64,000 bases of DNA, from positions 1,358,695 to 1,422,694 of the forward strand of contig NC_009051.1 of assembly GCF_000015825.1 (NCBI RefSeq). Direction: 5' to 3'. Within the stretch, counting starts at the first letter, position 1, and every line of letters begins with the position of its first letter. Positions 10,567-56,660 of this stretch are shown here, in pieces. Origin of the DNA: Methanoculleus marisnigri JR1 (GTDB lineage Archaea; Halobacteriota; Methanomicrobia; Methanomicrobiales; Methanoculleaceae). Below the pieces are notes generated by a model, which was given only the letters and a program-made list of their open reading frames with translations, did not search any database and was not told the DNA's origin. The position numbers were made by a program, and so were the translations under genes.

Positions 10567-10774
10567 TACCCGGACAGACTTCGCGTTCCTGGCGTAAGGC
10601 CGGATCACTATCCTTGCCCCATCACTCACGCGAAGAGCGACGGACGGGACGTCCGGAGTTCGAGGAGAACAAAGTTCTTCGAGAGCGCGAAGGCGCGAGG
10701 AGGAGGGACGATGTGGGCTTATCGATTGCCGGTGACGTACTGTCGGCACCGCAGCTAACCGGCCGCAATCTAGC
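10567..10774. repeat. Mosaic hairpin repeat block B
   Basis: A short block between a secreted-protein gene and fdhB. It contains CGGACG-GGA-CGTCCG near 10639-10653 and GAAC-AAA-GTTC near 10672-10682, followed by GCGAAGGCGCGAGGAGGAGGG. Linkers such as GGAGTTCGAGG are like those of the other blocks. No gene is seen here. Confidence 0.65.
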
Positions 10775-45905: not shown

Positions 45906-46960
45906 CGCAGGCGGCCTTGCGTATCATCGCGGGCAAGGAGTTCTCCGACCATCTCCGGAGCAGGCGGTTCCACCTCCTCTTCGCGATCCTGGCCGTCGTC
46001 GCCGCCGTCGGCATGATCACCGGAGCGGTCCAGTACTCGAAAGACCTCTCCGACTACAACGCGGTCCAGATGATCGCGGAGGGGGACGACGACCCGACGC
46101 TCGCCGGCAACCTTGCCGGGATGAAACCCTCCGTCCTCTCGGCATACTCCCAGATGGGAATGCTGATGGCCGGTATCGGCGTGGTGCTCGGGATCGCGAT
46201 GGGGTTCGACCTGGTGACCCGGGAGAAAGAGAGTAAATCCCTCAAAAGCCTGCTCGCCTACCCGGTGTTCCGCGACGAGGTGATCAACGGAAAAGCCCTC
46301 GGGGGCGTCGGCGCAATCGCGCTCGCGATGGGGGTCGTCCTGATCGTCTCCGTTGCAATCATGGCCCTGTTCGGCATCGTCCCGAACCTCGACGAACTGG
46401 TACGCATCCTGGTCTTCGGGGTGACGTCGTTCCTCCTCGTCTTCACGTTCTTTGCCCTCGCCCTCCTGATGTCGACGGTCTCCAAAGACAGCGGGAGCGC
46501 CCTGCTGTACTCCCTGATCGTGATGATCGTTCTCTCGTCGTTCATTCCGATCTTCGCGTACACCCCGGTATACTCGGCCGTCTTCGGCGACGCCCCCACC
46601 CCGCCGGGCATGTCCACCTACTCCTACCAGCAGAGTTCTTCGGCCTATACTGTGACATCGGTCGCGGTTGCATACAAATCCGACGATGCCGTAGACCCGG
46701 AAGCCCTCGCGGAGTACGAGCGGGCATCGAGAGAGTACATGAACCAGAAACGGACAATCACCGATATCGTCACGCTCGTCTCGCCGACCGGCAACTACCA
46801 GACGATTCTCGGCGCCGTATCGCAGCCCGCAGGGGAGAATACCCCGGGACTCGGAAACCTCCTCGGCGCCCTCGCCTGCAACATCATCGCCCTGCTTGCA
46901 ATGCCCGCAGCCTTCTTCGGGCTGGCATGGGTCCGGTTCATGCGGGAGGATATCCGGTGA
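45902..46960 (+). CDS. ABC-2/NatB-type permease
   Basis: A 352-residue membrane protein with a first helix near residues 22-42, a large extracellular loop, four central helices (about 85-240), a second extracellular region with many Ser/Tyr (TYSYQQSSSAYT) and a last helix before VRFMREDIR. The segment FDLVTREKESKSLKSLLAYPVFRDEVINGKALG is the coupling-helix region of ABC-2 permeases. It is paired with the preceding ATPase. Confidence 0.88.
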   Translation: MTQAALRIIAGKEFSDHLRSRRFHLLFAILAVVAAVGMITGAVQYSKDLSDYNAVQMIAEGDDDPTLAGNLAGMKPSVLSAYSQMGMLMAGIGVVLGIAMGFDLVTREKESKSLKSLLAYPVFRDEVINGKALGGVGAIALAMGVVLIVSVAIMALFGIVPNLDELVRILVFGVTSFLLVFTFFALALLMSTVSKDSGSALLYSLIVMIVLSSFIPIFAYTPVYSAVFGDAPTPPGMSTYSYQQSSSAYTVTSVAVAYKSDDAVDPEALAEYERASREYMNQKRTITDIVTLVSPTGNYQTILGAVSQPAGENTPGLGNLLGALACNIIALLAMPAAFFGLAWVRFMREDIR

Positions 46961-47274
46961 CCGGAGCCCCCTCCTGGCTGGAGAAGCCGGGCGTGGTGCT
47001 CATCATTCTCCTGGCCGGACTGACGGCGGCGACGGTCTCGAACATCGGCGGGAGGGAGGTCGCCGTCTATCTCATGGCGGTACTGGCGGTCGCGAGCGCA
47101 ATCGTCGTGTACTTCGATGCGACGGCGATCGGTGCCGGAACCCGGGTAAAGACCGAACGGCTCCGCGATATCGAGACATGGAAGCCGGCCTCGTGGGCGA
47201 TCTGGGTCGTCATCTTCTGGCCGCTCTTCCTGCCGTATTATCTCTGGAAGCGGAATGGAATGAAGAGTTCCTGA
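46957..47274 (+). CDS. Small membrane protein at the end of the ABC operon
   Basis: A 105-residue protein starting with GTG that overlaps the permease stop by 4 bases. It has two N-terminal helices (GVVLIILLAGLTAATVSNIG, VAVYLMAVLAVASAIVVYF), a short polar part (IGAGTRVKTERLRDIETWKPASW) and a third helix (IWVVIFWPLFLPYYLWKR). It probably serves the transporter, but no family is recognised. Confidence 0.75.
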   Translation: MTGAPSWLEKPGVVLIILLAGLTAATVSNIGGREVAVYLMAVLAVASAIVVYFDATAIGAGTRVKTERLRDIETWKPASWAIWVVIFWPLFLPYYLWKRNGMKSS

Positions 47275-47368
47275 TGCTTGCTATGTACATCCCAGGCCAT
47301 AGCATCCCCAAAACCGTCCGGAGACGTCCCGGGAGCGTCTCCTCCCCGGCGCCTCTCTCAAAAACAGG

Positions 47369-47554
47369 TTAGAATTCCGTTTTCCTGAAGTACCTGAGCG
47401 CCTCCGGCCGGTGCTGTTCAAGCTCCGCGAAGAAGTGCTCTGCAAGTTGCGGGTCGGAGTCGTTGATCGCCTGCTGCAGAGTGCGCATCAGCCAGCCATG
47501 GATCTCCTGGCCGCGGTCAAGCGTATTCATCACGACGACGACCGCCTCGCCCAC
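47369..47554 (-). CDS. Small conserved hypothetical protein
   Basis: A 61-residue soluble protein: MNTLDRGQEIHGWLMRTLQQAINDSDPQ, then LAEHFFAELEQHRPEALRYFRKTEF. Two or three helices are predicted. An inner ATG at 47530 would give 53 residues. The composition and codon pattern look coding, and no larger frame covers the region. The function is unknown. Confidence 0.55.
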   Translation of the reverse strand: MGEAVVVVMNTLDRGQEIHGWLMRTLQQAINDSDPQLAEHFFAELEQHRPEALRYFRKTEF

Positions 47555-47651
47555 ATCTCGTCTGTCGTTCCATCAATACACCGTACCACCATCTTTTCCG
47601 CGGGTTTTATCCGGCCGGAGGACAACAGGACGTTCGGATGAGGTGTCTGTG

Positions 47652-53862: not shown

Positions 53863-54537
53863 ATGAGGTTGACCTGGCTTGGCCACGCGTGTTTTTCTCT
53901 TGCAGGATCGCGGACGATCGTCATCGATCCTTTCATCCCGGAGGGATCGCTTCCCGCGGAGCCCGATATCGTTGCCGTGACGCACGCCCACGCCGACCAC
54001 CTGGGCATTGCCACAGAACTCTCGAAGAAGACGGTCGCCGTCAACGAGGTGGCGAAGTACCTGAAAACGAAGGGCGTTCCCGCCGAACCGATGAACCTCG
54101 GCGGCACCATCACCGTCGACGGCGTCCGGTTCACGATGACGCCCGCGCTCCACTCGTCGTGGCTGGAAGACGAGGGACCGGGGTTCTACGGCGGTGTGGC
54201 CGCCGGATTCGTCATCACGATGGACGGTGTCAGCGTCTACCACGCCGGCGACACGGCGCTCTTCTCCGATATGCAGCTCATCCGCGACCTCTACCGGCCG
54301 GACGTGGCGCTTCTCCCCGTAGGCGGGTGCTTTACGATGGGGCCCGAAGAGGCGATGATCGCGGCGCGATACATCGGCGCGCCGCTCGTGGTCCCGATGC
54401 ACTACGATACCTTCCCCGCCATCCGGCAGAACCTGGAGGAGTTCAAGCGGACCATCGAGCGCACGACGTCGATCCGGGTCGCGCTGCTCTCGCCGGGAGA
54501 GAGCATCGAGGTCGGCCCGGAAAAGGCCGGGGAGTGA
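53863..54537 (+). CDS. UPF0173 family metallo-beta-lactamase-fold hydrolase
   Basis: A 224-residue protein of the UPF0173 (YtkL-like) group. It has the N-terminal WLGHACFSL, metal motif VTHAHADHLG, MTPALHSS, VYHAGDTALFSDM and C-terminal MHYDTFPAI. All the His and Asp ligands of a two-metal site are present. The substrate is unknown. The length is normal and the ATG is the only plausible start. It is followed by repeat block F. Confidence 0.88.
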   Translation: MRLTWLGHACFSLAGSRTIVIDPFIPEGSLPAEPDIVAVTHAHADHLGIATELSKKTVAVNEVAKYLKTKGVPAEPMNLGGTITVDGVRFTMTPALHSSWLEDEGPGFYGGVAAGFVITMDGVSVYHAGDTALFSDMQLIRDLYRPDVALLPVGGCFTMGPEEAMIAARYIGAPLVVPMHYDTFPAIRQNLEEFKRTIERTTSIRVALLSPGESIEVGPEKAGE

Positions 54538-54599: not shown

Positions 54600-55310
54600 G
54601 GCACGTATGGCCGAGGATTGAGGAAGATCAACTCATACTTTCGGTGCTCGTGCTCCTCCGGCCACATTTTGGGACATCTCAAGTCCCGTGCACGGATTTC
54701 CACTGGGAGTCGCACCTTTGGTGCTCCAACTCCGTTCCTGCCGAAACGTCGTTTATCGCCATTGGGGAGTGCGGCTGGCCGAAGGTGCGATGTTCCGGTG
54801 GAACGGAGCTGGAGCACCGGTAGGAACGACGTTCCATGGGAACGGAGTTCGAGCACCGGAGGTGCGAGGTGCGGGGGCAGGAGCATGAGAAGAACGAAGT
54901 TCTTCGGGGGGCTGACGGGGAGTGCGATGGGCGGAACGCCCGGAGCTCGAGCACCCGAAGGGTGCGGAGTGCGAGCGTAGCGAGCTTGAGCACCGGAGGT
55001 GCGAGTGCGATGGTTCGGAGCGCGACTGCCGTCCCGGCAGGAGCGTGAGCACCGAAGGTGCGAAGAACCGGAGCTCGAGCACCCGAAGGGTGTGGAGTGC
55101 GAGCGAAGCGAGCTTGAGCACCGACAGGTGCGAGCGAAGTGAGCATGAGAAACTCGAAGAGTTTCGAGGGGTGAGCATCCCCCCTCCCCTGTCCCCACGT
55201 TACACCTTCAGACTTCATTGCTGCAGACAGTTCTGCTCCTGCAACCCCCACTCGAAGACCTTCGGTCTTCTCAAGCTCCGGACGTCCCGTCCGTCGCACC
55301 CCCCACCCAA
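54600..55310. repeat. Mosaic hairpin repeat block F (most ordered)
   Basis: About 700 bases, the best example of the family. Units in order include GTTCC-GGT-GGAAC (about 54792), CACC-GGA-GGTG (54855), AGAAC-GAA-GTTCT (54891), GGCG-GAA-CGCC (54930), CACCC-GAA-GGGTG (54951), GCCG-TCC-CGGC (55027), CACC-GAA-GGTG (55049), CACCC-GAA-GGGTG (55079), CACC-GACA-GGTG and AAACTC-GAA-GAGTTT (55149). It ends in GAGGGGTGAGCATCCCCCCTC. Linkers such as GGAGCTCGAG and GAGCTTGAG join them. Open frames of 308 codons (54922-55848) and others cross it but are repeat reads. Confidence 0.82.
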
Positions 55311-55399
55311 CCCTGCACAAAGATATATGTGGTCTCACGCCTGGAGTGACGCGGGCTCACCGGGCCCCGGTGAGAGTATCCAGTATGAGGTGAGGGAAA

Positions 55400-56362
55400 A
55401 TGGAAGAGAAGATGTTTACTCCCGGCGGCATGGAGCGCCTGCAGGCCACGAGCGACCGGGAGAATATCCCGTATCCCCGTGGGGACGGCAAAGTCAAACT
55501 GGTGAACTCGGAGTGGCTGGACCGCCACTTAACCGACACAAACCTGACGGTCATCGACGTTCAGCCGAATATACACGACTACATCCAGGAGCACGTCCCC
55601 GGTGCCGTCTACCTGACCGAAGGCGTCCTGCGGGTATCAAACCGCGGCTTCCCGGGGTCGTACAGCCCGAACGCCTGCATCCAGGAGTCGTTCCGGCGTG
55701 CAGGCATTACGGCCGACTCCCCGGTCGTCGTCTATACCGGGAAAGGCGCGTTCTCCGGCGCGGGCGACGGGCTCGGGCAGACGATGATGGCCTACACCCT
55801 GGCGAAATACGGCCACAACGCCGTGTACATCCTCGACGGCGGGATTGACGCGTGGAAGAGCGAGGGGCGGGAACTCTCGCAGGACTACCCCCCGGTCGAA
55901 CCGTCGGATTTCACCGTCGAGGTCCGGGACGACTACCCCATCGGGTACGAGGAGTTCGTGCGGATCAAGGACAACGACGATGTGGTCGTGCTCGATGCAC
56001 GCCCGGCAAAGGTCTATGAAGGGAAGGGGCCCTGGCGGAAGGCCGGGCATATCCCCGGTGCCGTCAACCTGCCCTGGAAGAGCCTGATGCACGAGGCGAA
56101 CCCGGCCCGGCTTAAATCCAACGACGAACTCGACATGATCCTGGAAGAGCACGGCGTCGACCGGAGCAAAACGGTCATCTGCTCGTGCGGGACCGGAAGG
56201 GAAGCCACGAACGAGTTCGTCCTCTTAAAGTGGCTCTACCTCTACCCGAACGTTCGGATCTACGAGGGATCGTTCACCGAGTGGGTTACCTACCCGGACA
56301 ACCCGGTCGTAGAGGGGTCGGATCCCCGAGGGGCGAGAGTCGAGACGGCTTCTGCACGGTAA
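55400..56362 (+). CDS. Two-domain rhodanese (sulfurtransferase)
   Basis: A 320-residue protein with two rhodanese domains. The N-terminal one (LVNSEWLDRHLTDTNLTVIDVQP ... AVYILDGGIDAWKSEGREL) lacks an active-site Cys. The C-terminal one (VVVLDARPAKVYEGKGPWRKAGHIPGAVN) has the loop CSCGTGREATNE with the catalytic Cys near residue 259. It transfers sulfane sulfur from thiosulfate or a persulfide to an acceptor such as cyanide. The start at 55400 follows GAGGTGAGGG. It is the first gene after block F. Confidence 0.9.
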   Translation: MEEKMFTPGGMERLQATSDRENIPYPRGDGKVKLVNSEWLDRHLTDTNLTVIDVQPNIHDYIQEHVPGAVYLTEGVLRVSNRGFPGSYSPNACIQESFRRAGITADSPVVVYTGKGAFSGAGDGLGQTMMAYTLAKYGHNAVYILDGGIDAWKSEGRELSQDYPPVEPSDFTVEVRDDYPIGYEEFVRIKDNDDVVVLDARPAKVYEGKGPWRKAGHIPGAVNLPWKSLMHEANPARLKSNDELDMILEEHGVDRSKTVICSCGTGREATNEFVLLKWLYLYPNVRIYEGSFTEWVTYPDNPVVEGSDPRGARVETASAR

Positions 56363-56524
56363 TCCTTAAACGTCCGGGCAACCGGCCAAAACCTTTATTT
56401 TCTATATTTCCCAAACAGAAACCATTAAATATTACAATGCACTAGATAGACCTAGAGAGATTTGGATTCACACAAGACACTTCCCCCCTTGACGTCGTCT
56501 TTTTGTGTATCCTCTTCTCTCTAA

Positions 56525-56660
56525 AAGCGACGGGCCGGAGCTCGAGAAAACGCGAAGCGTTTTCGAGTTGCGAGGTTCCGCAGGAACCGAGCAGGAGCAC
56601 CGTCAAGGTGCGACTTGCGACTGCCGGAACGGCAAGAGCACCGCAGGCACGAAACCGCAT
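56525..56660. repeat. Mosaic hairpin repeat block G
   Basis: Contains AAAACGC-GAA-GCGTTTT near 56545-56561, GGTTCC-GC-AGGAACC near 56574-56587, CACC-GTCAA-GGTG near 56598-56610 and TGCCG-GAA-CGGCA near 56620-56632, with GGAGCTCGAG and GAGCAGGAGCACC linkers. The surrounding 56363-56524 and 56660-56820 hold no recognised gene; an AT-rich stretch (56395-56440) may hold a promoter. Confidence 0.75.

Follow-up and report, generated by a model that had tools for sequence, protein, structure and literature searches.

The window that we analyzed is the whole stretch of 64,000 nucleotides at genome positions 1358695-1422694 of Methanoculleus marisnigri JR1, the genome of which is a single contig of 2,478,101 bp; evidence from this genome was drawn from genome searches and from stretches totaling about 0.58 Mb. 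Genes for a metal-dependent hydrolase (53863-54537) and a rhodanese/sulfurtransferase (55400-56362) enclose block F, where a plus-strand chain of small hairpins (about 54770-55170) is flanked by minus-strand pieces (54638-54740 and 55250-55300). The window holds at least seven hairpin blocks, those besides F lying near 2.6, 10.6, 30.2, 33.8, 38.6 and 56.5 kb. Many further blocks are found beyond the window, and the genome carries well over a hundred such hairpins. These belong to two classes, X and Y, which alternate, an X followed by a Y hairpin making up a basic unit of about 45-51 bp.

On the minus strand, block F starts with a degraded chain piece (GGAGCACGAGCACCGAAAG..., 54638-54660), listed as inverted repeat I3/I5, and with the Y hairpin GCACC-AAA-GGTGC, the loop of which is mutated (54712-54724). 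In the plus-strand chain, the X hairpin GTTCC-GGT-GGAAC (54792-54804) is followed by an X hairpin with the outer helix AAC/GTT, GA/GA feet (54825-54849) and the inner stem CGTTCC-ATG-GGAACG (54830-54844), and by the Y hairpins GCACC-GGA-GGTGC (54853-54865) and GAAGAAC-GAA-GTTCTTC (54889-54905). Here, GGGGCTGACGGGGAG of the host palindrome E1 (54908-54922, plus strand) intervenes and the next chain begins after it with TGCGA, continuing with the X hairpin GGGCG-GAA-CGCCC (54929-54941), the Y hairpin GCACCC-GAA-GGGTGC (54951-54965), a minimal hairpin, GC-GTA-GC, with GA/GA feet (54975-54981), and a further Y hairpin, GCACC-GGA-GGTGC (54990-55002). The X hairpin CTGCCG-TCC-CGGCAG (55026-55040) has a loop that is inverted relative to its feet. 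It is followed by the Y hairpins GCACC-GAA-GGTGC (55049-55061) and CACCC-GAA-GGGTG (55080-55092), by the minimal hairpin GC-GAA-GC, which is the GCGAAGC mini-hairpin itself (55103-55109), by a Y hairpin with a tetraloop, GCACC-GACA-GGTGC (55118-55131), and by GAAACTC-GAA-GAGTTTC (55149-55165), the Y hairpin with which the plus-strand chain ends. Back on the minus strand, a Y hairpin (GAAGACC-GAA-GGTCTTC, 55254-55270) and an X hairpin (CGGACG-GGA-CGTCCG, 55279-55293) complete the block. All four hairpins quoted in a preliminary description of this DNA are present (54889-54905, 54929-54941, 54951-54965 and 55149-55165).

Over the 64-kb window, C/G-closed triloops on stems of at least 5 bp are enriched for GAA (22, as compared to 2.1 expected from an order-2 Markov model) and for GGA (11, as compared to 2.4 expected from the same model). 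The DNA fold of 54770-55175 has a z-score of -4.58, with none of 100 shuffles equaling it.

A separate hairpin (GGCTCACCGG...CCGGTGAGA) is found at 55352-55380 on the plus strand, upstream of the rhodanese gene. Its sequence varies among relatives, with pairing kept in several, and it is possibly a leader element. It should also be noted that more than one frame is open across the chains, with several of them open, and that long spurious ORFs result, such as one of 308 amino acids at 54922-55848.

Caps, feet and stems of the hairpins

The preliminary description had assigned the chains a fixed three-base loop. The loops are in fact GNA (GAA, GCA, GGA or GTA) or GNNA, mostly closed by a C-G pair. 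In X hairpins, an outer 3-bp helix is followed by GA facing GA and by an inner stem of roughly 6 bp (e.g., CTGCCG, CGTTCC and CGGACG). Y hairpins have a stem of 5-8 bp (e.g., GCACC, GAAGACC, GAAACTC and GAAAACGC) on YGA/GAG feet. What had been read as linkers joining the units belongs to the fold, as GA faces GA at the foot and the X linkers form a covarying outer helix (AAC/GTT, TGC/GCA, AGC/GCT or CGC/GCG), the first three pairs of which beat each of 1,000 permutations. Between linkers, X segments that are 7 nt long are frequent. TGC/GCT, in which the outermost pair is broken, is also frequent around X, and pair 4 is a G.G mismatch in many X copies, a point against the reading favored below. 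In DNA, sheared pairs can form between 5'-GA-3' steps that face each other.

The word with its full flanks, GAGNNYGA-GCACC-G(N or NN)A-GGTGC-G, occurs 126 times genome-wide, with none found for the reversed control. Among the 61 genomes compared, the core word is nearly restricted to the genus, where copy number is patchy, ranging from 0 to about 75 for one word.

Hairpins were selected by their feet (YGA before and G0-1GAG after), leaving the loop free. In genus loci, the 345 triloops thus collected are mostly GNA and the 111 tetraloops mostly GNNA, while in the M. marisnigri genome, a G..A loop is found in 105 of 134 triloops and in 41 of 62 tetraloops. The third base of these GNNA loops is a pyrimidine in 39 of 41 cases (13 of 15 when each stem-loop combination is counted once), with only 2 being of the GNRA form. 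When hairpins were instead selected by the loop, GA was seen on both feet of 103 of 213 cGNAg hairpins, as compared to 37 of 1,622 for other G/C-closed loops. Inverted loops are rare, the triloops selected by feet comprising about 290 GNA and about 8 TNC. In an unbiased 400-kb sample of the same genome, the GNA excess is modest (78 versus 56 expected), since only a small part of the genome is occupied by chains.

When they sit on two or more G-C pairs, GNA and GNNA loops are known as extraordinarily stable DNA mini-hairpins, with GCGAAGC melting at about 78 °C (PMC4686876), and d(cGNNAg) is named as one of four stable DNA tetraloop motifs in the title of Nakano et al. 2002 (via PMC5090098). 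Most of the caps described here have this build, with a G..A loop of three or four nucleotides on at least two G-C pairs. They share with the mini-hairpins the loops, the C-G closure and GCGAAGC itself (PMC4686876), yet the mini-hairpins are chemical motifs, whereas in the chains the same caps are the repeated, covarying core of genomic repeats. Among C-closed GNA caps in genus loci, GAA is seen most often and GTA least often; GAA loops are placed 6 degrees above GTA loops (PMC6479982). ViennaRNA energies, both DNA and RNA, rank the loops uninformatively, the DNA set having no GNA bonus. The pyrimidine preference at the third GNNA base is not demanded by the DNA motif and should be counted against an explanation by DNA folding.

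Covariation of the stems

For the covariation analysis, X and Y segments were picked by their linkers alone, within the neighborhoods of GCACC hairpins. An earlier test of X with loose linkers gave no signal, the sample being mostly unrelated background, and the tight-linker design was chosen after that failure. X segments (15 nt) are 80.1% Watson-Crick paired over six pairs, as compared to 52.6% with permuted arms (maximum of 1,000 permutations, 57.5%), and Y segments (17 nt) are 60.8% paired, as compared to 40.8% (maximum 48.2%). As a separate check, one orthologous site was considered in nine genomes, where 94.8% of cells are paired, as compared to 35-44% when partners are slid. These permutation and sliding controls leave relatedness in, and replacement of whole modules can contribute to the paired changes. 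At the orthologous site, five base pairs are altered on both sides; CGGTCC, CGGCCC, CGGCCG and CTGCCG are examples for X, and the change from GAAAACGC to GAAAACAC is one for Y.

The statement that stems vary and yet pair thus holds, since pairing is much lower with permuted arms and slid partners, although not all stems differ, as a stem vocabulary is reused throughout the genome. Pairing is also incomplete in 60 of 89 distinct X segments. One could argue that the apparent covariation reflects nothing more than decay of tandem copies or shared descent, considering that tandem arrays exist and modules are reused. The permutation and sliding controls, the grammar of caps and feet and the location of sites in unrelated flanks all speak against this reading, which is hardly credible and which we consider refuted by the covariation tests. 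Neither outcome that the preliminary description had named as fatal to its claim was seen, as covariation is stronger than in shuffled controls and simple tandem decay does not describe the stems.

DNA or RNA level

The preliminary description implied an RNA reading, and covariation as such would be expected of transcribed hairpins that end, stabilize or regulate transcripts; one chain, moreover, lies directly behind a putative small RNA gene. Nonetheless, the orientation of the chains is random relative to flanking genes. In intergenic regions between genes of the same direction (with genes being simple ORF calls), the GNA strand runs with transcription in 18 cases and against it in 16 (p = 0.86), and block F itself holds both orientations. 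The tetraloops, with their pyrimidine third base, are not GNRA, the Rfam search of both intergenic regions yielded nothing above chance, and no U-tract design is seen. A structured RNA is thus an improbable explanation. No obvious replication-strand bias was found. That chains have inserted between and within genes, and that nearly all hairpins bear caps known for unusual stability in single-stranded DNA, suggests a mobile repeat whose form is set by folding of the DNA and not by a function as RNA or protein.

Filled, empty, nested and tandem sites

The putative small RNA gene (CTAGAGAGATTTGGATYC...CTTCCCCCCTTGACGTCGTCTTTT...TCTCTCTAAA) lies at 56452-56525 on the plus strand, with a closing AGAGAGA/TCTCTCT stem. 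It is nearly invariant in about 26 Methanoculleus genomes and has no Rfam match. At its 3' end, TCTCTCTAA|A continues directly into the downstream flank in twelve genomes, while a chain is present in twelve genomes, including M. marisnigri (56526-56652, plus strand). On the gene tree, the filled state requires three changes.

A second such site is found inside a gene. In an NcsA/TIGR00269-like tRNA-thiolation gene outside the window (genome positions 469369-470416, locus L224), an in-frame chain is located at the zinc-ribbon end, between CERCGE and PCGKICRTC. Seven genomes are filled at this position (G000, G033, G030 and four others) and 21 are empty. Counted from the marker, there are 74 residues in G000 and G033, 125 in G030, and 59-60 in the four genomes, which carry a different chain at the same place, whereas empty genomes, including the close relatives G004 and G006, mostly have 28-29 residues.

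Units are also found within other repeats and within each other. A 45-bp X-Y unit is present at the tip of palindrome E1 in G015 and absent in G030, G003 and G033, a 51-bp X-Y unit is nested inside the G030 copy of the tRNA-thiolation gene, and another nested unit is located in an X arm of G004 and G033 at the small-RNA-end site. The first bases of inserted pieces are TGCGA or CGA and the last are GA(A)G, GAGT or GGA; the pieces adjoin GAG, GGA, AAA or GGG. Four of five insertions are flanked by two to three similar bases, with no clear target duplication. Tandem arrays are seen with periods of about 46, 55, 61 and 97 bp, and at one site, where G000 has one or two copies, the array in G033 holds six or seven. 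Inversion of the loop with the stem left intact is seen as TCC at 55026 in block F and as TTC in G004 at the orthologous site.

The host palindrome E1 (...TATCGCCATTGGGGGAGGGGCTGACGGGGAG...CCCCCTCCCCTGTC...) is a larger repeat that often carries chains in its tip. Its core is found at 54908-54922 of the window and at 66 other places in the genome, which together make 56 exact copies and 11 with one mismatch, and in relatives, chains begin at the same E1 position as at 54908-54922. A second host repeat, E2 (TCACGCGAAGNNCGCGAAGCCGCGAAG...CTTCGCGTGA), also bears chains, in the window at 10630-10680 and elsewhere in the genome at 46900-47600 and 499100-499560.

These sites bear on the possibility that the chains are selected DNA landmarks, namely cruciforms or single-strand hairpins bound by protein in chromatin, replication or repair, with selection on the fold keeping the pairing. 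Such landmarks would account for a grammar based on the fold with the stem sequence left free, for the mostly intergenic location of the chains and for the fact that a clade of relatives has retained a chain at one site while its bases changed in pairs. They sit poorly with the patchy copy number in the genus, with clean absence at orthologous sites, with insertion within a gene and with decaying copies such as the incompletely paired X segments, and we thus regard this explanation as rather unlikely.

Occurrence outside the genus

Among the matches listed in a scan of all genomes, the same 18-base module was found outside the genus. When as many as two mismatches are allowed, 160 modules are counted in Dictyobacter aurantiacus, as compared to 2 for reversed controls, and smaller sets are found in Alistipes, Prevotellaceae, Lachnospiraceae and Clostridia; as these genomes were picked for having a match, the counts reflect recurrence and not frequency. 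Where read, the modules sit in unrelated repeats (in Chloroflexota, Bacteroidota and Clostridia). In the D. aurantiacus repeat (L320-L329), for example, GAGCACC-GNA-GGTGCGAA, with a variable loop N, comes after a long palindrome. This loop position is variable in Alistipes as well, where a paired stem change from C:G to T:A is seen within one repeat. In unbiased triloop spectra of other genomes, the GNA excess is weak, so the design is confined there to specific repeats.

Comparison with known systems

The chains resemble REP/BIME elements in being short hairpins in paired units, found in intergenic clusters and in many copies. In addition, some REP tetranucleotides have (G)GAG at the foot, to which the (G)GAG at the foot of the chain hairpins can be likened. 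REP/BIME elements have, however, a conserved hairpin sequence and a conserved 5' tetranucleotide, whereas the stems of the chains vary and covary, with only caps and feet constant, the caps are GNA, and insertion into a gene is occasional. A REP/BIME-type element mobilized in trans by a Y1 (RAYT/IS200-type) transposase should also be accompanied by that enzyme. The Y1/HUH transposase family, PF01797, gave 0 matches in the M. marisnigri genome and is absent from nearly all chain-rich relatives, while being present in the chain-poor genomes G023, G020 and G002. We thus consider such mobilization very improbable; the Y1 transposase as mover was rejected for this absence.

Rickettsia palindromic elements (RPE) are likewise short palindromic repeats that are found across a genus and in frame inside genes (PMC10969869), and the chains are inserted in frame in one gene. 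RPE are, nonetheless, families of about 150 bp with a conserved sequence that encodes a conserved peptide, whereas chain units are of 45-51 bp, with free stems and constant caps and feet, and two different chains occupy the same gene site in different species. The chains thus work like RPE or BIME, yet fail the tests that define these elements, namely the Y1 enzyme and a conserved sequence. As MITEs do, the chains present short, non-autonomous units in many copies with empty sites in relatives. Terminal inverted repeats spanning the unit are not seen, target duplication is not clear-cut, given the two to three similar bases at four of five insertions, and no partner transposon was found in the family searched (Y1). 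CRISPR does not apply either, as block F consists of alternating hairpins and not of a constant repeat array; the M. marisnigri genome paper gives 0 CRISPR repeats, and its passages mentioning repeats do not describe these chains (PMC3035220).

Repeats of 45 and 51 nt were listed before among the prokaryotic satellites of M. marisnigri (PMC6749651), and, judging by their length, these are probably tandem X-Y units. That survey treats tandem arrays, and the portions consulted make no mention of hairpins, of caps or of copies that are dispersed (PMC6749651). The preliminary description knew of no named repeat family with this design, and this is borne out, as there is no Rfam match and the open-access literature yielded neither a description of the chain design nor a named family that has it.

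Proposed origin and upkeep of the chains

The reading that we favor, with a probability of roughly 0.6, is that the chains are a genus-wide, non-autonomous, modular family of interspersed DNA repeats that acts as single-stranded DNA and in which pairing is kept by copying and fold-back synthesis. A unit would act when DNA is single-stranded, during replication or repair, where its caps would snap shut. Units would insert beside purine triplets (GAG, GGA or AAA) and multiply via tandem duplication, and gene conversion may swap them between sites. Fold-back DNA synthesis, rewriting one arm from the other, would be the main keeper of pairing, such that the two arms would change in concert and loops would at times be inverted, while copies that lack caps would fade.

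The preliminary description had left open whether selection or copying maintains pairing. Copying explains much of it, because modules are reused, insertions are nested, units are duplicated in tandem and loops are inverted. Hairpins can be created by template switching, which can also alter the two arms simultaneously and invert the loop (PMC8794818), and copying with fold-back rewriting is favored because paired changes and rare inversions occur here; selection on the DNA fold is its main rival. Still, as inverted loops are rare, either such loops are lost or switching of the template from strand to strand is infrequent. A broader and more tentative proposal, to which we would give less than even odds, is that of mobile DNA defined by its fold, in which single-stranded GNA-capped mini-hairpins would be recognized and propagated, drifting stems would be rewritten as pairs, and Archaea, Chloroflexota, Bacteroidota and Clostridia would have come by the design through separate origin or through spread.

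Covariation is usually taken as strong evidence of functional RNA, whereas here a large natural set of covarying stems seems to originate at the DNA level. In practical terms, covariation-based RNA searches in such genomes need the chain repeat to be masked, and ORFs called across chains, being likely false genes or in-frame insertions, should be considered a trap for automatic gene calling. As filled, empty, nested and loop-inverted states are found at orthologous sites, the chains permit a direct test of the birth and upkeep of hairpins by template switching. They would also suggest a genomic role for GNA/GNNA DNA mini-hairpins, which are known mainly from chemistry and aptamer work.
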